NCBI GenBank assembly: GCA_903642325.1
Contig: CAHJWM010000038.1
Location: 1 to 47,351, forward strand
Length of the DNA: 47,351 bases
From: Myxococcales bacterium
GTDB lineage: Bacteria > Myxococcota_A > Polyangia > Polyangiales > Polyangiaceae
Reading direction: 5' to 3'
A program made the translations under genes and the position numbers. This document shows, piece by piece, positions 25,770 through 45,407 of this stretch; the stretch's first letter is position 1, and every line of letters starts with the position of its first letter. Below the pieces are notes generated by a model. It saw only the letters and a list, made by a program, of their open reading frames with translations, was not told the origin of the DNA and ran no database searches.

Positions 25770-26489
25770 CTACGTGCGGACGGTGGTCGCGTCTTGCCCG
25801 TACAGGAGCTTGCGTTGTTCGTCCGTCAACGGCGCGGGCGGCGTGGGCGGATTCAGCTGATCCGCGAGCGCGTAAGCACGCACCGTGGCGGGGCGCGCGG
25901 CAATCACGCTTTGCCAACGCTTCAGGTTCGGGAACTGTTCGATGTCTTGGTTGAGGCGCGTGAAATTGCGCGTCCACGGATAGCTCGCGATGTCGGCGAT
26001 GCTGTATTCGCCGCGGCCGGCGCCGGCGACGAAGTCTCGATCCTGAAGGCGCTTATTCAACACCGCGAACAGCCGGGCGGTTTCGCGCTCGTAGCGGTCG
26101 ATGGCGTACGGCAGTTTTTCCGGGGCGGCGTGGTTGAAATGGCCGTTTTGTCCGGCCATTGGCCCAAGGCCCGCCATCTGCCAGAACAACCACTCTAGCG
26201 CCTCGGTACGGCCGCGCAGGTCCTTTGGGATGAGTTGACCGGTCTTGTCTGCCAAGTACAGCAAGATGGCGCCCGATTCGAAGACTGGGATCGGCGCTCC
26301 GCCGCCCGCTGGCGTTTGGTCGACGATCGCCGGAATGCGGTTGTTTGGTGCGATGCGCAAAAACTCCGGCCGGAACTGTTCCCCCTTGCCGATGTTGACG
26401 GGCAACACGCGGTACTCGAGCTTCGTTTCTTCCAAGAATAGCGTGACCTTGTGGCCGTTGGGCGTGGTCCAATAATGTAGATCGATCAT
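25770..26489 (-). CDS. Glutathione S-transferase, YfcG/YghU (nu-class) type
   Basis: 239 residues with the YfcG-like start IDLHYWTTPNGHKVTLFLEE, then NNRIPAIVDQTP and a FESGAILLYLADKTGQLIP segment, and a helical domain containing EALEWLFWQMAGLGPMAGQNGHF typical of this class. YfcG/YghU relatives act as glutathione-dependent disulfide reductases rather than conjugating enzymes. No cysteine. It lies one base after the SDR stop, in a two-gene leftward operon, and is convergent with the other GST gene. Confidence 0.91.
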   Translation of the reverse strand: MIDLHYWTTPNGHKVTLFLEETKLEYRVLPVNIGKGEQFRPEFLRIAPNNRIPAIVDQTPAGGGAPIPVFESGAILLYLADKTGQLIPKDLRGRTEALEWLFWQMAGLGPMAGQNGHFNHAAPEKLPYAIDRYERETARLFAVLNKRLQDRDFVAGAGRGEYSIADIASYPWTRNFTRLNQDIEQFPNLKRWQSVIAARPATVRAYALADQLNPPTPPAPLTDEQRKLLYGQDATTVRT

Positions 26490-31565: not shown

Positions 31566-31581
31566 GTCTCTTGCAGTAGAT
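31566..31581. promoter_or_regulatory. Possible operator, 7 of 8 fixed bases
   Basis: GTCTCTTGCAGTAGAT overlaps the first possible start codon of the receptor (31580). If functional it would favour a later start such as the GTG at 31661. Confidence 0.3.
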
Positions 31582-34351
31582 GTATGTCCTTGACAAAGAA
31601 CTCGGCGCCGAAGCAGCATCCGCGCTCGCAGCCGATAAAAGCGACGCCAGCGAGCGAAAGGTGCGGACAACAGTGTTGGGTCACAGATCATCCTTGGTTC
31701 CTGTGCTGGCCCCGATAGGGGTTATCGCAACCGTTCTGCTTTCTTTTGGGCTCGCGCACGCGCAAGCGCCTGCAACCGAGCCGGCGCCGCCCGTGCCGCC
31801 GCCGGAGCCATCTGCGGCCCCCGAGCAGCCCCCGGCGGGAGGGCAGCCGCGAGCCGCTGCCGGATCTGCACCGGCGCCCGCGCCGGTACCGGTGCCTGAG
31901 GCCGCCGAGCCTGCGCCGGACGCGGCGCCGCCAGCCCCGCCTTCAGCTGCGCCTGCTGAAGGTGCTTCAACGCCTTCGACGATCACGGTTCCGTCCGGCG
32001 GAACAGCCCCTGACGAGACTCCCGCTCCTGCCGAGCCAGACACTTCACTCGAGCAGATCACCGTAACGGCGCGCCATCGCGCAGAAAATCTTCAGGAAGT
32101 GCCGATCGCCGTCACCGCCGTTACGGAGCGTGACTTGGAAGCGTCGGGTAACTTTTCTATCCGTCAAGTTCAGAACCAGGTGCCAAGCCTGCAGATCCTG
32201 GGCTTCAATCCGCGCAACATCACGATTCAAATCCGAGGCCTTGGCACCACGTCAGGGACCGTGAACAGCGGCATCGAGCCAGGCGTCGGCGTGTACGTGA
32301 ACGGCGTGTTTTACGCGCGGCCGTCGGTTGCCGTCTTCGACCTGTTCGACATTCAGAACATCCAAGTGCTCCGTGGCCCGCAGGGCACGCTTTACGGCAA
32401 GAACACCGTCGCCGGCGCCATCGACATTCAGAGCAATCCCGCCTCCTACACACCCGAGTTCCGTTCGGAGCTGAGCTACGGCAACTACAACTACAGCCAG
32501 ATCAAAGTCGCGGGCTCGGGGCCAATCGGTGACACTGGCTTCGCGTTCCGGCTCGCCGGCATCAAGACCGATCGCGATGGCACGATCTACAATACGAAGA
32601 CCCAGGCAGATTGGCAGGACTATCATAACCAGGGCGTACGGGCGGAGCTTGCCTACCGGACCAAGGACGAGAGCTTCAAGGCGCGATTGATCGGCGACTA
32701 CAGCAGCCAAAAGGAGTACCAAGGCTTCCAGGTAAACCGCGGGGTGTTGCCGAAAACGCGGACAGACGGCAGCGTAGGCACAGCCCGCGGCTACTATGAT
32801 CGTGCGACGGACTTGGGTTACACGCCCGCCGCCATCGACCCAGGTGCGCGCAGGGTAGAGCTGAACACGCCTTACACCGTGAACATGCAAACCGGCGGTG
32901 CCTCGCTCGAGCTCGACAAAACCGCGTTCAGTGATCATACGCTCACATCGATCACTGCCGCGCGCTTTTGGAACTGGAATCCATCACTCGACGGCGACGG
33001 AACGCCGCTCGCGATTGTAACTCAGGCCAACCTGCCGACTCAACAGCGGCAATGGAGCCAAGAGCTTCGCGTTGCTTCGCCGAGCGGCAAGCAGGTCGAG
33101 TACACCGGTGGCCTCTACTACTTCTGGCAGCGCACCAAAGAGGTTCCGTACAACACGTACGGCTCGGATGCTGCGAAGTGGTTGCTTGGCGCCGCCTTTC
33201 CGGATGCCGCGCTCACCAACGTCACGCAAAGTGGCCGCCAGCTTGGTATCACGAATAGCTATTCGGCTTACGGAAACGCCACGTGGCATGCAACGGACCG
33301 CCTCGACGTAAATGGCGGCCTTCGTTACACGTATGAGACGCGCACCGGTAAATACCGGTCTTTTCCGCTGGATAACGCGTTGCCCCTGACCGACCCGGCG
33401 TTCTCCGCGCTGACGCCCGCCCAGCTCACCGCGATCACTACGCGCCGCGGGATCTTCGCGCCGCAGGCTGCATTCGATACGAAAGCCAGCGGCGGCGAGC
33501 CCTCGGGCACGCTGAACGTTCTTTATCACATCACGAAAGAGGTCAACGCATATGCGGGCTATTCGCGCGGGTTCAAGTCCGCGGGGGTCAACTTGTCCGT
33601 GCCCGTGCAGCTTGCGAACGGACCCGCCCCGCTCACCTTCAAGCCGGAGATCGTCAACGCTTACGAGCTCGGTTTGAAGACCAATTTGCTCGACCGACGA
33701 CTGAGCACGAACGTCGCGCTATTCCGCTCGGACGACAGCGGTTATCAGGCGAACCAGAGCCTTTTAGTCGATACACCCACGGGCCCAATCCTACGCCAAT
33801 ATCTGACCAACGTCGGTGACGTACGGAGCCAGGGTATCGAGGTCGACCTCCGCGCGAGGCCAGTCGAGGGCCTGTGGGTCACCGGGGGCTTCACTTTCAA
33901 CGACGCCCGGTTCACGAGCTATCACAATGCACAATGCGCCTATTCGCAGGTCACCGCACAAAACGGCGGTGTTTGCGACTTGACGGGACACCACCTCGCG
34001 GGTGTGTCGAAGTACGTGTACACTGTAGCCGCCGAATACGCGTACCCCGTTGGCACGTTGTTCGGCCTCAAGTCGCTCGCCTACGTCGGCGGCAACTGGA
34101 CTCAGCGCTCCCATTACTACGGCGCGTTGAACGACGACCCGTACAGCCGGGTGCCAGGCTACGGGCTCGCGAGCGCCTCAATCGGTCTGCGTGACGCGGG
34201 AGACCGCTGGGACCTCAAGTTTTGGGGCCAGAACCTGTTCAACACGCTGTACTACGTCAACGGCTCCGTCGACTCGGCCATCACGTATACTTACCGCGGG
34301 TCTCTTGGCGATCCGCGCTTTTATGGCACGACCCTTCGCATCAATCTCTGA
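31580..34351 (+). CDS. TonB-dependent outer-membrane receptor
   Basis: 923 residues from the ATG at 31580; a GTG at 31661 would give 896 residues and a more usual signal peptide (VLAPIGVIATVLLSFGLAHA, cleavage before QAPA). A Pro/Ala-rich linker of about 95 residues separates the signal peptide from the TonB-box region LEQITVTARHRAENLQ. The plug motif is IQVLRGPQGTLYGKNTVAG; the barrel ends FYGTTLRINL. Two cysteines near residue 790 (CAYSQ and GGVCDL) probably form a surface-loop disulfide, and the mature part has only one methionine or so. Divergent from the metallohydrolase, with operators between. The ligand is unknown; a periplasmic hydrolase next door suggests it is processed after uptake. 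Confidence 0.93.
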   Translation: MYVLDKELGAEAASALAADKSDASERKVRTTVLGHRSSLVPVLAPIGVIATVLLSFGLAHAQAPATEPAPPVPPPEPSAAPEQPPAGGQPRAAAGSAPAPAPVPVPEAAEPAPDAAPPAPPSAAPAEGASTPSTITVPSGGTAPDETPAPAEPDTSLEQITVTARHRAENLQEVPIAVTAVTERDLEASGNFSIRQVQNQVPSLQILGFNPRNITIQIRGLGTTSGTVNSGIEPGVGVYVNGVFYARPSVAVFDLFDIQNIQVLRGPQGTLYGKNTVAGAIDIQSNPASYTPEFRSELSYGNYNYSQIKVAGSGPIGDTGFAFRLAGIKTDRDGTIYNTKTQADWQDYHNQGVRAELAYRTKDESFKARLIGDYSSQKEYQGFQVNRGVLPKTRTDGSVGTARGYYDRATDLGYTPAAIDPGARRVELNTPYTVNMQTGGASLELDKTAFSDHTLTSITAARFWNWNPSLDGDGTPLAIVTQANLPTQQRQWSQELRVASPSGKQVEYTGGLYYFWQRTKEVPYNTYGSDAAKWLLGAAFPDAALTNVTQSGRQLGITNSYSAYGNATWHATDRLDVNGGLRYTYETRTGKYRSFPLDNALPLTDPAFSALTPAQLTAITTRRGIFAPQAAFDTKASGGEPSGTLNVLYHITKEVNAYAGYSRGFKSAGVNLSVPVQLANGPAPLTFKPEIVNAYELGLKTNLLDRRLSTNVALFRSDDSGYQANQSLLVDTPTGPILRQYLTNVGDVRSQGIEVDLRARPVEGLWVTGGFTFNDARFTSYHNAQCAYSQVTAQNGGVCDLTGHHLAGVSKYVYTVAAEYAYPVGTLFGLKSLAYVGGNWTQRSHYYGALNDDPYSRVPGYGLASASIGLRDAGDRWDLKFWGQNLFNTLYYVNGSVDSAITYTYRGSLGDPRFYGTTLRINL

Positions 34352-34380: not shown

Positions 34381-34410
34381 CAAGCGAGACGCTTGACAGC
34401 GTCTCGCTTG
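34381..34410. terminator. Long perfect hairpin, possible terminator
   Basis: A 13-bp stem (34381-34393 with 34398-34410) around the loop TGAC, 30 bp after the receptor stop. No T-run follows, so Rho-independent termination is not certain; the stem could also block 3' decay or separate the receptor from the next operator-driven unit. Confidence 0.5.
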
Positions 34411-34421
34411 AAGGACTATAC

Positions 34422-34437
34422 GTCTCTTAAGTTAGAT
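34422..34437. promoter_or_regulatory. Probable operator, 7 of 8 fixed bases
   Basis: GTCTCTTAAGTTAGAT, one base off the shared frame in the last position. It lies 12 bp before the start codon of the monooxygenase remnant, at the spacing of intact genes. Confidence 0.45.
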
Positions 34438-34449
34438 GAGGATTGACCC

Positions 34450-34616
34450 ATGGCGAACGCACGACAACTGAAGCTAGGCGCGACGTGGCCGACGAGCGTT
34501 GGTTAGTGGAGCTGTTCAAGATCGAGTATCTCGCGGAAACGCCGAGGGGTCACCTTTGTTTGCCGGGTCCGGGGAACCGCTGGGCCGCCGCGCAAAACAC
34601 GCAAGCAGCCGAGTAA
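34450..34616 (+). pseudogene. NtaA-type monooxygenase reduced to its two ends by internal deletion
   Basis: The ATG at 34450 opens MANARQLKLGATWPTSVG, then a stop at 34504. The start matches the family N-terminus (compare SKRQLRLGAI at 7696). In another frame, from about 34500 to the stop at 34614, one reads ELFKIEYLAETPRG, HLCLPGPGNRWAAAQ and NTQAAE, which matches the family C-terminus (compare [20 protein letters not shown] at the end of the 2270 gene). Roughly 400 codons between are gone. The upstream 7/8 operator remains, so the flavoprotein gene that follows may now be the first real gene of this unit. Confidence 0.65.
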
Positions 34617-34620
34617 GCCA

Positions 34621-36216
34621 TTGGCCCAAACTTCAGCTGGTGGCCCCGAGCCGCTAAGAATCGAAGCAGACGTACTCGTCGCGGGCGGGGGAATGGCCGC
34701 GTGCTGGGCTGGGATCTCCGCAGCGCGCGCCGGCGCAAAGGTCGTGCTGGTCGACAAGGGCTATGTCGGCACGAGCGGCGTCACCGCGACGGGAGGGCCC
34801 GGACATTGGTGGGTCTCGCCCGAGGGTGACGCGCGCAAACAAGCCATCGATAAACGGTTGCTGACGGGGTACGGGCTCGCTGACCCGACCTGGATGGAGC
34901 GCATCATCGAGACGACTTGGCGTGTGCTCCCGACGCTCGCTTCCTATTATCAGTTCAGCGTCAATGACAAGGGCGAGACGGTTTACAATGCGCTGCGCGG
35001 CCCCGAGTACTTGCGTGCGCTTCGCAACGCGGCGGTCGATGCCGGGGTGACCATCCTGGATCAGAGCCCCGTGCTCGAGTTGCTCCTCCACGACGATGGT
35101 TCCGTGGCAGGCGCCAACGGGGTGCAACGCCAACAACATCGTGAGTACTCGGTGCGAGCGGGTGCCGTCGTCCTCGCAACCGGCGGCGCCGGCTTCCTCG
35201 GAGGGCTGCTCGGCAGCAGCACCAACACGGGTGACGGCCATTTGATGGCGCTCGAAGCGGGCGCAGAGCTCTCGGGGATGGAGTTTTCGAACCAGTACTC
35301 CATCTCCCCGCGCTGGAATTCGACCCGCACGCTGATTTATTCGTGGGCGCGCTACTTCGATGCCGACGGCAAAGAGCTGGATGTGCTGCCCGATAACGAT
35401 GTGCTCGAACGCGCGCTGATCGCTGGCCCAGTGTTCGCTTTGCTCAACGAGTGCCCTGCTGGCCTCAGAAAAACCCTACCCCAGATCCAGCCGATGACGC
35501 TCTTGCCGTTCGTGCGCAAGGGCATCACGGACGTTTACGAGAAGCCGTTCGAGGTCAAGCTGTTCGCCGAAGGCACTATCCGCGGCACGGGTGGGTTACG
35601 CATCGTCGGCGACCAGTGCGAAACCACGATCGCGGGCTTGTACGCCGCCGGCGACACCGCGACCCGCGAGTTGATCGTCGGCGCGACGAGTGGCGGCGGT
35701 TCCCCGAACTCCGCGTGGGCGCTGACCTCGGGGCTATTGTCTGGCGCGGGCGCGGCCGCGCTCGCGCAGAGCCGTGGCCGTCGCGCTGATTCAAAGGTTC
35801 GCGCCCAAGGTACCGCCGGTCTTCGCCCGCGCGGCAGCGTGAAGCCGGTGGATCGGCGCCGCGTGCTCGAGGCCGCGCAAAACGAAATTTTGCCCCTCGA
35901 TAAGAACGTGTTTCGCTCCGGCCGCAAGCTCCGTGATTCCTTGGGCGTTCTGGAAGCCGCATGGCGTGAGCTACGCGACCATGATCTTGCTCAAGGCGCT
36001 GATGCCGTCATCGCGCGCGAAACGGCGAGTGTCGTGGCCACGGCTCGCCTCTCCTACACCGCGGCTCTGGCTCGTGACGAAAGTCGCGGCATGCACCAAC
36101 GAGAAGACGCACCCGAACAAAAACCTGAGCAAGCGCGCCGTCTCCTCGTCGGTGGTCTCGACGAGGTATGGACACGGCCCGAAGCTCAAGCGCAATGGAA
36201 GCCCACGCATGTTTGA
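34621..36216 (+). CDS. FAD-dependent oxidoreductase, fumarate reductase/AprA-like flavoprotein
   Basis: 531 residues with a TTG start at 34621, four bases after the stop of the upstream remnant. The dinucleotide motif is ADVLVAGGGMAACWAG followed by GAKVVLVDKG; GAVVLATGGAGF and IAGLYAAGDTATREL are further flavoprotein signatures of the succinate dehydrogenase/fumarate reductase/APS reductase family. It overlaps the ferredoxin gene by 8 bp, the arrangement of AprA and AprB, but no ATP sulfurylase or other sulfate-pathway gene is near. The pair is probably an oxidoreductase for an organic or sulfur compound, with ferredoxin as electron partner; the reaction is unknown. The start codon is weakly supported. 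Confidence 0.87.
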   Translation: MAQTSAGGPEPLRIEADVLVAGGGMAACWAGISAARAGAKVVLVDKGYVGTSGVTATGGPGHWWVSPEGDARKQAIDKRLLTGYGLADPTWMERIIETTWRVLPTLASYYQFSVNDKGETVYNALRGPEYLRALRNAAVDAGVTILDQSPVLELLLHDDGSVAGANGVQRQQHREYSVRAGAVVLATGGAGFLGGLLGSSTNTGDGHLMALEAGAELSGMEFSNQYSISPRWNSTRTLIYSWARYFDADGKELDVLPDNDVLERALIAGPVFALLNECPAGLRKTLPQIQPMTLLPFVRKGITDVYEKPFEVKLFAEGTIRGTGGLRIVGDQCETTIAGLYAAGDTATRELIVGATSGGGSPNSAWALTSGLLSGAGAAALAQSRGRRADSKVRAQGTAGLRPRGSVKPVDRRRVLEAAQNEILPLDKNVFRSGRKLRDSLGVLEAAWRELRDHDLAQGADAVIARETASVVATARLSYTAALARDESRGMHQREDAPEQKPEQARRLLVGGLDEVWTRPEAQAQWKPTHV

Positions 36217-36646
36217 GCTCATCATTCGCGACCGCTGCAATGGCTGCAATCGCTGCGTCGAGGTATGCCCCACGAACGTGCTCGAGCCCGGACCCGAGGG
36301 GATTCCGGTCGGCGCGCGCGTCGAGCAGTGCCAGACCTGCTTCATGTGCGAGCTCTATTGCAAAGAGGACGCGATCTACGTCGGCCCTGATCGGGACAAG
36401 CGCGAGCCGGTGAACGAGGCACAAATCGCGGCTTCCGGCCTGCTCGGACAATACCGGCGGGACTCGGGTTGGGATGAATGGGCGAGCAACCCGCAATACG
36501 ACAACCAGATTTGGCAGCTCGGCCCCTACATCCAGGCCGGCGGAAAGCGCTCCGTCGAACGCGTCAAACTGCGCATCGCTGAACAGGCAAAACGCAGTGA
36601 AACGTCTGATCAGGGCGTACCGGGTCAACCCAAACAAGGTCTCTAG
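36209..36646 (+). CDS. Ferredoxin-like 2[4Fe-4S] protein, AprB-like
   Basis: 145 residues from the ATG at 36209, inside the end of the flavoprotein gene. Eight cysteines form two cluster motifs: CNGCNRCVEVCP near residues 10-21 and CQTCFMCELYC near residues 42-52. A C-terminal tail of about 80 residues (with GWDEWASNPQYDNQIWQLGPY) resembles the AprB-type tail that wraps the flavoprotein. Translational overlap supports a two-subunit complex with the 34621 product. The last 25 residues are Lys/Gln-rich and of little content. Confidence 0.88.
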   Translation: MFELIIRDRCNGCNRCVEVCPTNVLEPGPEGIPVGARVEQCQTCFMCELYCKEDAIYVGPDRDKREPVNEAQIAASGLLGQYRRDSGWDEWASNPQYDNQIWQLGPYIQAGGKRSVERVKLRIAEQAKRSETSDQGVPGQPKQGL

Positions 36647-39151: not shown

Positions 39152-40336
39152 ATGCTGCGCATCGCGTTGCTCTTGGCCCTCTACTTCGCCCAAGGGCTGC
39201 CGTACGGCTTTCAAGTCATCTTCCTGCCGGTCTACCTGCGATCTCAGGGCGCGTCGCTCGCGGACATCGGTTTTGTTGGCGTCTTGAGCTTGCCTTGGTT
39301 GTTGAAGGCGCTGGGGGCGCCTTGGGTCGACCGCTATGGCAGCGTGCGGCTCGGCCACTACCGCTCTTGGATCCTGCCCCTTCAGGCAGGCCTCGCCGTC
39401 GTTGCCCTGACCGCTGCGTTCGTGCCGGCGAAACAGCTCCCACTGCTCTTGGCGTTGGTGTTCGTGATGAACCTCTTCGCCGCAACGCAAGATATCGCGG
39501 TCGACGGCCTGGCCGTGCGGATCCTCAAGCCGCACGAGGTCGGCCGCAGTAATGCCGTACAAGTCGTGGGCTTTAAGCTCGGGATGCTGTTCGGCGGCGG
39601 GCTCTTGGCCTGGTCGAGCTTGTATCTCGGTTGGCGTGGGCTGTTTTTGGTGTTGGCCGGGGCGATGGCATTGGTGTTCTTGGCTACATTGCTGTTCCGC
39701 GAGCCGCCGGTCGTGGACACCTTGGCGCGTTCGTCGATCGCCGTGATCCTGAAACGCTTGCTCGCGGCAGCCCGTGCCCCCGGAAGCGGCCTACTGCTGT
39801 TGGCCGTAGCGATTTATAAGACAGGGGAGTACCTGGTCAGCGCGATGTTCAAGCCGTTCTTGGTCGATGCGGGTTACCCGCTGGCGCGGATCGACCTCTG
39901 AATCGGCACTTACGGCATGCTCGCGTCGCTCGCCGGCTCGGCACTCGGCGGTGAGCTCGGCCGATGGCTGTCCTTGGTGGACGCGCTGATTCTGGCCGCG
40001 CTGATGCACGTAGTTCCGTTGTTTCTCTGCTGGTGGATCACGCGCGTGACGGTTACGCCGAGCGCGGTGATCGCCGTGACGTGCGCGGAGCACTTCGCCG
40101 GGGGCTTGTCACGACAGTGATGTTCGCATTGATGATGGCACGGGTGGATCGGCGCATTGGCGCCACTCACTACACGCTGCTGGCCAGTGTCGAGGTGTTC
40201 GGAAAGTCGCCGGCAACGTGGCTGTCCGGGCTGCTCGCTGAGCGATTGGGTTACGCCGGCTTGTTTTTACTGGGCGTAGGGACTGTCGTTGGCTTTCGTG
40301 CTCGTCCCGCTTTCAATGCGCAGACGCGTTGCATGA
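39152..40336 (+). pseudogene. AmpG-type MFS transporter with stop codon and two frameshifts
   Basis: The start (LRIALLLALYFAQGLPYGFQ, DIGFVGVLSLPWLLKALGAPW, NLFAATQDIAVDGLAV) is that of AmpG-like transporters. At 39899 a TGA interrupts the frame where a Trp codon is expected (ARIDL then IGTYGMLASLAG). Near 40103 one base is lost: EHFAGGL continues in the next frame as VTTVMFALMMARVDRRIGATHY. Near 40283 a second shift leads to LAFVLVPLSMRRRVA and a stop at 40334. Put together, the pieces give a full-length protein of about 390 residues. Confidence 0.75.
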
Positions 40337-40546
40337 GACCCGGTCGTCGTAGGGCGGCCGCCGACTCGGGGAGCGGGAGCCTCCATGACTTATTCCGACT
40401 TTATCGTCACCTGAACAAGGCGTTCTCGCACATCGAGGAGCCGCCCCGTGCCATCCAGGTTTGGGCGAAGGACAATGCGGCTTGCGTCCGAGTGGACTCG
40501 TTTGAGCCCTGTTACTCAATGCGCTGAAATCAAGCGGCGAGATCTA

Positions 40547-43019: not shown

Positions 43020-44348
43020 CTAAGCGCTCTCGTGCAGAAAGCGTAGCGTCAGTGACAGCGCGGCAACCGCGAGCCCAGCGGCAAGACCGAGCCACAACCC
43101 GCGTGCGCCGAGTGGGGTGTGAAAAGCCAACAGGTAGCCGAGAGGTAGCGAGAGCAGCCAGTAGGCCGCAAATGTCAGCAGGGCCGGCACCCGCACGTCG
43201 GCAAGCCCCCGCAGCGCGCCCTGGCAAATCACTTGGCTACCGTCGAATACTTGAAAGATCGCCGCGACCGAGAGCAACTCAGCCGCTACCGCCGCAACGC
43301 TGTCTATCGGCGTGAACAAGCCCGCGATGAAGCGGCCTTGCCAAGCGAACAGGCCGGCAAAGATCAACATCAGGCATAGCCCAGCGCCTAGCGCGCCGAG
43401 GCCGATGGCTCGCACGCTCCCGGTATAGCCCGCCCCGTTTGCGCGGCTGATTCGCATGCTCACCGCATAGGAAAGGCCAAGTGGCGCCATGAATGTGAGT
43501 GACGCGCAGCCGAGCGCGATTTGATGCGCAGCCAGAGGCACGGTGCCGAGCCATCCGATCATCAAGGTCGAGGCTGCGAAGGCGCCGGTCTCGAACACCA
43601 GCATCGCGGCGACCGGCGCGCCGAAGCGGACCAGCTGGACGAGTCGCGCGGTCTGCCAAGCCGTGCGCGGCGCAGCACGCCACGCCGCAAAGGGCCGCCC
43701 AAACCGCAGCCAGCCCGTGATCGCTAAAACAGACACCAGCCGCGCGACCAAAGTCGACCACGCGGAGCCGACCAAGCCCAGCCGCGAAAAACCGCCGTGC
43801 CCGAAGACGAACAACCAGTTCAGAAGTGCGTTGAGGCCGACGCTGCCAATGGCAATGAGGGTTGGCCCCCACGGCTGCCCCACGGCCTCGGCAAACTGGC
43901 GCTGAACTTGAAATATCAGTGCCGGGAGCAGTGACGCGGCGATGAGCAGGTAGAACCCTTTGGCGAGGGCAATCACGTCCTCCGGCTCTCCCAAGCGATC
44001 GAACTGCGTCGACATCCCGGCCAGCACGCAGAAGCCCGCGAGCCCCACGACGAGCGAGAGGACGCGTCCGTGACGCAACCAGGACACGCTACTGGCCGCG
44101 TCTCCGGCCCCGTGCTCGCGAGCTGCAAACACGCCCGAGCCTACGAGCGATCCCACGCACACGACGTAGAACATGCCGAAGACACCTTGCGTGAACGCGG
44201 CTGCCGCGAGCGGAGCTGCACCCAAGCGCCCAATGAACGCCGTGTCGGTCAGGCCCATCAGCATTTGGCTGACATGCCCGACGACGATAGGTAGAGCGAG
44301 GGCCAGCGTTGGCCCGAGCTCGCGTCGGAGCGCGGAGTGAGTGCTCAC
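43020..44348 (-). CDS. MATE family efflux transporter
   Basis: 442 residues with a GTG start at 44348, chosen because homology begins at HSALRRELGPTLALALPIVV; the open frame extends about 950 bp further upstream without homology. Twelve helices. Typical segments: QMLMGLTDTAFIGRLG, VFVFGHGGFSRLGLVGSAWSTL-like loop, and AHQIALGCASLTFMAPLGLSYA with the NorM-type pattern. It exports cationic compounds using a Na+ or H+ gradient. Many Cys and Met residues, in contrast to the island proteins. Confidence 0.9.
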   Translation of the reverse strand: MSTHSALRRELGPTLALALPIVVGHVSQMLMGLTDTAFIGRLGAAPLAAAAFTQGVFGMFYVVCVGSLVGSGVFAAREHGAGDAASSVSWLRHGRVLSLVVGLAGFCVLAGMSTQFDRLGEPEDVIALAKGFYLLIAASLLPALIFQVQRQFAEAVGQPWGPTLIAIGSVGLNALLNWLFVFGHGGFSRLGLVGSAWSTLVARLVSVLAITGWLRFGRPFAAWRAAPRTAWQTARLVQLVRFGAPVAAMLVFETGAFAASTLMIGWLGTVPLAAHQIALGCASLTFMAPLGLSYAVSMRISRANGAGYTGSVRAIGLGALGAGLCLMLIFAGLFAWQGRFIAGLFTPIDSVAAVAAELLSVAAIFQVFDGSQVICQGALRGLADVRVPALLTFAAYWLLSLPLGYLLAFHTPLGARGLWLGLAAGLAVAALSLTLRFLHESA

Positions 44349-44512
44349 TCGCTGCGTTTTGGCATTGTTAGCCGGCGGCGAAGCACGGCAATGAATTCGA
44401 CGGACATCCGTGGGCGGATCCTGGCTCGGGGCGGCCGTTGCGTAGAGATCGTGAGCCAAGGTAAGGGCGAGCGCAATAAAGCTTTGCCCCTCGCGGTCGC
44501 TCGGATGGCCGC

Positions 44513-44528
44513 GTCTATCATAGGAGAA
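44513..44528. promoter_or_regulatory. Operator-like site, 7 of 8 fixed bases, doubtful
   Basis: GTCTATCATAGGAGAA lies between the divergent MATE and HAD genes, 54 bp before the HAD start. The left half resembles copy 9 (GTCTATCATA). Neither neighbour looks sulfur-related, so it may be chance. Confidence 0.25.
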
Positions 44529-44582
44529 TAAGCCTCGGAAGGAGCCCGGTCTAGATTCGGGCGGCGTGCTAGAAGCCGAAGA

Positions 44583-45407
44583 ATGCTGTTGTCGGTCGCG
44601 CTGCCGCTTTTGATCGCGACGGATTTGGATGGCACGCTCCTGCGGCGTGATGGTTCGATATCGGCTCGTACCCGGGCCGTTTTGCAGCGAGCGCGAGCAG
44701 CCGGCGTCCAGCTGGTGATGGTCACCGGTCGCCCAGTACGCCACGTGGAGAAGATTGAGGGGGCGCGCGAGCTCGGTGGCCTGGCCATCTGCGTCAACGG
44801 CGCGTTGATCTATGACTTGGACCATGAGCGCGTGCTGGAGGAAGCCCGCTTGAGCCCGCTCATGGCCTGCGAGCTCGTGCGGGAATTGCGCAAACATTTG
44901 CCGGGCATTTGCTTTGCTGTGGAGGTCGGCCTCGAATTTGGGTGGGAGCCGAGCTACGGGCTGCAGCGCAAGCGCACGGAGCCGCCGGGTCTGCCTACCG
45001 CTGACGCGCTGACGCTCTGCGCACAGGGCGTCAACAAATTGATCGCACGACACGCCGAGTTTGCGGCGGAGGAGCTGGCTGCTCGCTGTCAGCGCGTGTT
45101 GGTCAACCGGGCCACAGCCAGCTACTCGGGAGCGCCTTTTCTCGAAATGAGTGCGCTCCGGGTCAGCAAAGCGTCGGCTTTGGCGGGTTACTGCCAAGAG
45201 CGCCAAATCGATCCGAATCGAGTGATCAGCTTCGGCGACATGCCCAACGATCTGCCCATGCTGGAGTGGGCCGGCCACAGCGTTGCCATGGCGAACGCTC
45301 ATGCGAGCGTGCTCGCGGCAAGCAACGAAGTCACGCTTTCGAACGAAGAAGACGGCGTGGCAGTCGTGGTTGACCGGTTGCTCGCGAGCTGCGGCGACCC
45401 GCGCTGA
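44583..45407 (+). CDS. Cof-type HAD-IIB family phosphatase
   Basis: 274 residues with all four HAD motifs: ATDLDGTLL (motif I), VTGR (II), a Lys in VNKLIARH or SKASALAGYC (III) and SFGDMPNDLPMLEWAG (IV), plus the C-terminal AMANAHASVLAASNEVTLSNEEDGVA typical of Cof proteins. The family dephosphorylates sugar phosphates, FMN or PLP. FMN hydrolysis could matter for an island rich in flavin enzymes, but nothing here shows it. The start at 44583 lacks a clear ribosome-binding site. Confidence 0.92.
   Translation: MLLSVALPLLIATDLDGTLLRRDGSISARTRAVLQRARAAGVQLVMVTGRPVRHVEKIEGARELGGLAICVNGALIYDLDHERVLEEARLSPLMACELVRELRKHLPGICFAVEVGLEFGWEPSYGLQRKRTEPPGLPTADALTLCAQGVNKLIARHAEFAAEELAARCQRVLVNRATASYSGAPFLEMSALRVSKASALAGYCQERQIDPNRVISFGDMPNDLPMLEWAGHSVAMANAHASVLAASNEVTLSNEEDGVAVVVDRLLASCGDPR

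Follow-up and report, generated by a model that had tools for sequence, protein, structure and literature searches.

A probable deletion-shrunken monooxygenase gene at the head of a flavoprotein-ferredoxin operon in a Myxococcales bacterium

The window, as the whole 47,351-nucleotide stretch analysed here is termed, is the forward strand of contig CAHJWM010000038.1 (GCA_903642325.1) and encodes several monooxygenases. Those designated A, B, C and F are of the NtaA/DmoA type and pass the TIGR03860 cut-off; D and E are alkanesulfonate-monooxygenase-like. The genes of the four NtaA-type proteins on this contig are intact, and one more gene of the type resides elsewhere in the genome. The spacer separating the TonB-dependent receptor gene from the flavoprotein gene (Table 1) holds two pieces of a further NtaA/DmoA-type monooxygenase, which the preliminary description had rightly counted as the fifth NtaA-type and seventh LLM gene. 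The amino-terminal piece, whose ATG is preceded by GAGGA, continues as TWPTSVG and then meets a stop codon at 34505-34507. The carboxy-terminal piece (codons 34512-34613, stop 34614-34616) ends in AAE and is read in the +1 frame with respect to the ATG; four bases separate its stop from the TTG listed as the flavoprotein start. The reading frame of the remnant is thus broken, both by the stop and by the change of frame. The out-of-frame arrangement had been recognized beforehand, but the lengths proposed for the pieces are revised here: the family amino terminus spans 11 codons rather than 14-18 (18 being the length of the open frame), and the carboxy-terminal piece 34 rather than about 35. 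A single frame of 57 amino acids is open throughout 34443-34616 and has no Pfam match at E values up to 1.

Table 1. Features of the remnant, its surroundings and the operator-like sites of the window
Feature	Positions	Strand	Basis or remark
TonB-dependent receptor gene, upstream of remnant	31580..34351	+	Pfam Plug, TonB_dep_Rec_b-barrel
Promoter-like element, TTGACA-18 bases-TATACG	34393..34422	+	By eye; 10 of 12 consensus letters
Second operator-like palindrome, GTCTCGCTTGAAGGAC	34401..34416	+	7/8
Operator-like palindrome, GTCTCTTAAGTTAGAT	34422..34437	+	7/8; ends 13 bases before ATG
Amino-terminal piece, MANARQLKLGA	34451-34483	+	ATG at 34451; family N-terminus, 11 codons
18-codon open frame and stop	34451..34507	+	First 11 codons are the monooxygenase N-terminus
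Possible third island, VADE-RW	34485-34502	+	From about codons 368-378 of the gene
Carboxy-terminal piece, LFKIEYLAETPRGHLCLPGPGNRWAAAQNTQAAE and stop	34512..34616	+	Last 34 monooxygenase codons
FAD-binding flavoprotein gene, intact, TTG start as listed	34621..36216	+	Pfam FAD_binding_2; full-length relatives
4Fe-4S ferredoxin gene, overlaps flavoprotein gene	36206..36646	+	Pfam Fer4 families
Full GTCT-N8-AGAC sites	2240, 13916, 14064, 24872, 27229, 31317, 31425, 38361, 42268

The family assignment of the pieces rests on a profile HMM built from 57 NtaA-type proteins, namely 53 from the fetched loci together with A, B, C and F of the window, the remnant being excluded; the remnant was scored against this profile rather than against the TIGR03860 model itself. 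The carboxy-terminal piece matches profile positions 412-443 with 14.1 bits, a value reached by none of 139 real 269-base tiles of the window (monooxygenase-gene and spacer tiles excluded) and by none of 5000 order-2 Markov pieces, for which the best scores were 1.7 and 7.7 bits, respectively. It is far above chance. The amino-terminal piece reaches 2.2 bits at profile positions 1-13, matched by no tile and by two of the Markov pieces; weak by score, it is convincing by place, as it begins with a start codon and stands in the right order, 5′ of its counterpart. The description of the remnant as the two termini of a monooxygenase gene is upheld on these grounds. None of the 139 tiles exceeds 1.7 bits, so that no further monooxygenase remnant emerged from this survey, which fragments split by tile edges or lying in the excluded tiles could escape.

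The remnant's ends thus match the profile built from proteins of the NtaA/DmoA type, FMN-dependent monooxygenases (family TIGR03860), but nearly all of the fold is missing. Only 45 of about 443 codons are recognizable and the full-length luciferase-like domain is absent, and the remnant cannot be a working NtaA/DmoA enzyme. In 59 NtaA-type rows, several of its residues are unseen at their column, including changes of L to P, G to C and V to G. The unusual residues of the carboxy-terminal piece fall at columns dominated by L, G and V, as would be expected for a decaying sequence.

An intact gene, such as that at locus L058, comprises 443 codons and a stop (1332 bases), and the remnant measures 166 bases from ATG to stop. 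The net loss is therefore about 1166 bases, which is not a multiple of three, and about 398 of the 443 codons are missing, close to the 400 originally estimated. A single clean deletion appears insufficient: 28 bases at 34484-34511 fit neither edge of the join, where after one clean event the matching parts would adjoin. The junction was probably shaped by more than one event or by inserted bases. The 28-base segment reads VADERWLVE, which resembles the VADE-I-E-RWF stretch located some 42 codons upstream of where the carboxy-terminal piece begins, with two codons missing. This resemblance was equalled by 17 of 2000 null sequences within the ordered interval and by 39 of 600 over the wider profile, and offers weak support for a possible third island in the middle of the remnant.

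Comparison with other genomes indicates what formerly occupied this position. Loci were found through the flavoprotein in named genomes, the best 80 of at least 432 confirmed being kept, and 91 upstream regions were scanned, comprising those of the 80 loci, of five second copies and of seven places in genomes related to the host, apart from L082, which was too short; some regions fell below the 700 bases aimed at (about 250 bases at L030, for example). Within this set, the flavoprotein gene is immediately preceded, on its own strand, by an intact NtaA-type gene in six of the 91 regions (L058, L059, L076, L080, L084 and L101, as read from open frames), representing two Sphingobium, one Novosphingobium, two Streptomyces and one metagenome-assembled genome that is labelled actinobacterial and whose flavoprotein falls among those of sphingomonads. 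Five more of the 91 (L033, L037, L042, L043 and L072) have an NtaA-type gene upstream on the opposite strand; opposite-strand matches at L056 (6.0 bits) and L004 (32.6 bits, alkanesulfonate-monooxygenase-like) were not counted as NtaA-type. A broken NtaA-type copy occupies the same slot in Acetobacter sicerae (L032:5446-5823), where about the first 100 codons are preserved, scoring 50.3 bits with our profile and 16 bits, under the cut-off, with Pfam. No short form of the gene similar to the present one was seen in the 91 regions.

The same arrangement occurs on plasmids. Flavoprotein matches were obtained in 58 records of a plasmid collection, and the three that were opened are all from sphingomonads: in two, a monooxygenase gene is annotated that overlaps the flavoprotein gene by 4 bases, and in the third (L121), which carries no annotation, one near-full-length tblastn stretch with 64% identity to gene B lies in the same place. 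The Sphingobium operon consisting of an LLM oxidoreductase, an FAD-binding protein and a ferredoxin (NZ_CP115457.1, AP027331.1) has the gene order and strand seen here; its first gene is intact, with the 4-base overlap, whereas that of the window is broken. In the parts of the literature consulted, nothing evidently relevant to a monooxygenase-flavoprotein-ferredoxin operon was found. An intact gene between operator and flavoprotein, which the preliminary description proposed seeking in related strains, was thus located in other genera; no close strain bearing one was found among 183 genomes of the order. A strong flavoprotein match is present in six of these, one being the genome of the window, and a same-strand monooxygenase is absent upstream at all seven places in the other five.

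The carboxy-terminal piece itself resembles the syntenic genes more closely than the monooxygenases encoded nearby. Its alignment scores are 75, 74, 72, 68, 68 and 59 with the syntenic genes of L119, L058, L059, L080, L120 and L076, respectively, compared with 53, 53, 51 and 51 for paralogues A, B, C and F and 19 and 23 for the alkanesulfonate-type D and E; two syntenic Streptomyces genes, at 53 and 51, do no better than the paralogues. The match extends to the last residue with L058, L059, L076, L080 and L120, and likewise with paralogue A. Similarity of this frame to the paralogues, with which the preliminary description had proposed a comparison, is present, and it is exceeded by that to the six syntenic genes. 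Descent from one of the window's paralogues is less likely, since those six genes align better, by a gap in raw score that the two Streptomyces genes do not share. Taken together, the intact gene in this slot elsewhere and the better match to the six syntenic genes support the earlier proposal that the remnant was the lead gene of the flavoprotein-ferredoxin unit.

In a flavoprotein tree made with a quick method, the protein of the window falls, on a long branch of its own, in a set of 13 rows (SH-aLRT 99) that also includes four loci with the intact gene and the broken L032. Of the 12 other rows in this set, seven lack an upstream monooxygenase on the same strand, and these include the closest by identity, that of Caulobacter hibisci (L026); a label test on the tree revealed no clustering beyond that of shuffles. 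The seven flavoproteins of the host's family sit in another part of the tree, so the operon may have been acquired from outside that family. That the contig belongs to the host is supported by its glutathione S-transferase gene (25770-26489), which has counterparts of 78-79% identity on contigs that bear monooxygenases in two congeneric genomes.

Upstream of the remnant is a promoter- and operator-like region. The promoter-like element was recognized by eye; a promoter scan, which accepts a second hexamer only if it ends in T, returned nothing there. At its end begins the palindrome that had been described as a 7/8 operator, and seven of the eight core letters are indeed present. Matches of this grade are no commoner in the window than chance predicts (14, against a mean of 14.1 for 30 Markov sequences), and the site is credible through its place rather than its score: it ends 13 bases before the ATG, comparable to the 14 bases between the full palindrome at 2240-2255 and gene A. 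The full 8/8 form, GTCT-N8-AGAC, was seen nine times in the window; the 30 Markov sequences contain 0.43 on average and 2 at most. This excess marks the palindrome as a real feature of the contig, and we predict it to be the operator of a regulon.

The distribution of the motif extends beyond this contig. In the genome, GTCTCNNNTNNNAGAC gives ten rows (nine places), this contig accounting for five of the rows and four of the places, and the reversed control gives none; contig C65 has two exact matches of the longer operator form and also an NtaA-type gene. The operator is not shared with the intact genes at L058, L059, L076, L080, L119 and L120, where the best site in the 200 bases upstream is 5 or 6 of 8. 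Among the 40 window frames scanned, none gave a Pfam match to a regulator family.

Considered as a whole, the locus very probably contains a pseudogene, shrunken by deletion, of the NtaA/DmoA-type first gene of a monooxygenase-flavoprotein-ferredoxin operon, and it appears to reflect ordinary gene decay in which the genes downstream look intact. The loss of about nine-tenths of the gene, with a net shift of frame, would have required one deletion at least and probably more than one. What remains is the promoter and operator-like region, the first 11 codons beginning with the start codon, possibly a short segment from the middle, and the 34 codons at the end. Transcription from the old promoter would then reach the flavoprotein and ferredoxin genes through a leader of about 190 bases, and the flavoprotein would be translated from its own start, uncoupled from the monooxygenase end. 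The preliminary description had suggested that the deletion brought the operator close to the flavoprotein gene. The leader does seem to have been shortened, but the layout in relatives places the flavoprotein gene already second in the unit, so the deletion would have created no new link between operator and flavoprotein.

Several other accounts of the spacer can be weighed against decay. The organism might possess a whole gene that the assembler collapsed: the assembly, in which the window makes up one of 140 contigs, has 3.49% contamination, and four NtaA-type genes on one contig can confuse assemblers. A chimaera of those genes would not be expected to yield a carboxy-terminal piece nearer to other organisms' syntenic genes than to any of the four, and the residues unseen in the family rows, like the unexplained bases at the join, have the look of age; an artefact is accordingly judged highly improbable. 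Still less probable is a leader under selection, in which the 18-codon or the 57-residue frame is kept as a peptide or RNA that tunes the flavoprotein gene. Such a leader would account for the persistence of promoter, operator-like region, start codon and GAGGA and for a frame open throughout, but its predicted RNA structure is at the level of chance (z 0.71) and it matches no Rfam family at the gathering score, results that lead us to reject a structured RNA leader. Moreover, conserved columns carry the unusual residues, the short form seen here recurs in none of the upstream regions, and the spacer has no DNA relatives in the plasmid collection at E 0.01.

The pieces are short, and a chance resemblance within the spacer might be supposed on that account; the tile and Markov controls contradict it to the point of ruling it out, and the order, place and ending of the pieces agree with those of the syntenic gene, so its probability is negligible. 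Conceivably, the collapse was itself adaptive, the retention of promoter, operator and start codon converting the first gene into a short translated leader that alters flavoprotein and ferredoxin output for the remaining monooxygenases, but we consider this very unlikely.

The decay proposed here is of a familiar kind. Bacterial pseudogenes are removed by deletion, as set out by Kuo and Ochman (2010; PMC2916853), and, as in the cases treated there, a broken gene has been shrunken by deletion with a remnant left behind; the distinguishing circumstance is that the gene affected was the first of an operon whose later genes look intact. The process appears routine, and what the remnant adds is a view of the operon as formerly arranged. 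A modest lesson is that the flavoprotein-ferredoxin pair has been kept although its neighbouring monooxygenase is gone, and this retention suggests other partners for the pair. The broken copy at the corresponding position in Acetobacter sicerae hints that the monooxygenase gene is lost more easily than the pair.

Two other stretches of the window deserve mention. At 39152-40527, a 249-residue MFS-type frame matches only positions 2-235 of a 347-position family profile and is followed by a 187-residue frame with no Pfam match, the two possibly representing another broken gene. Matches of the 760-residue frame at 43020-45302 to the nine relatives listed all begin at residue 291 or beyond, so the true start of this frame is probably internal.
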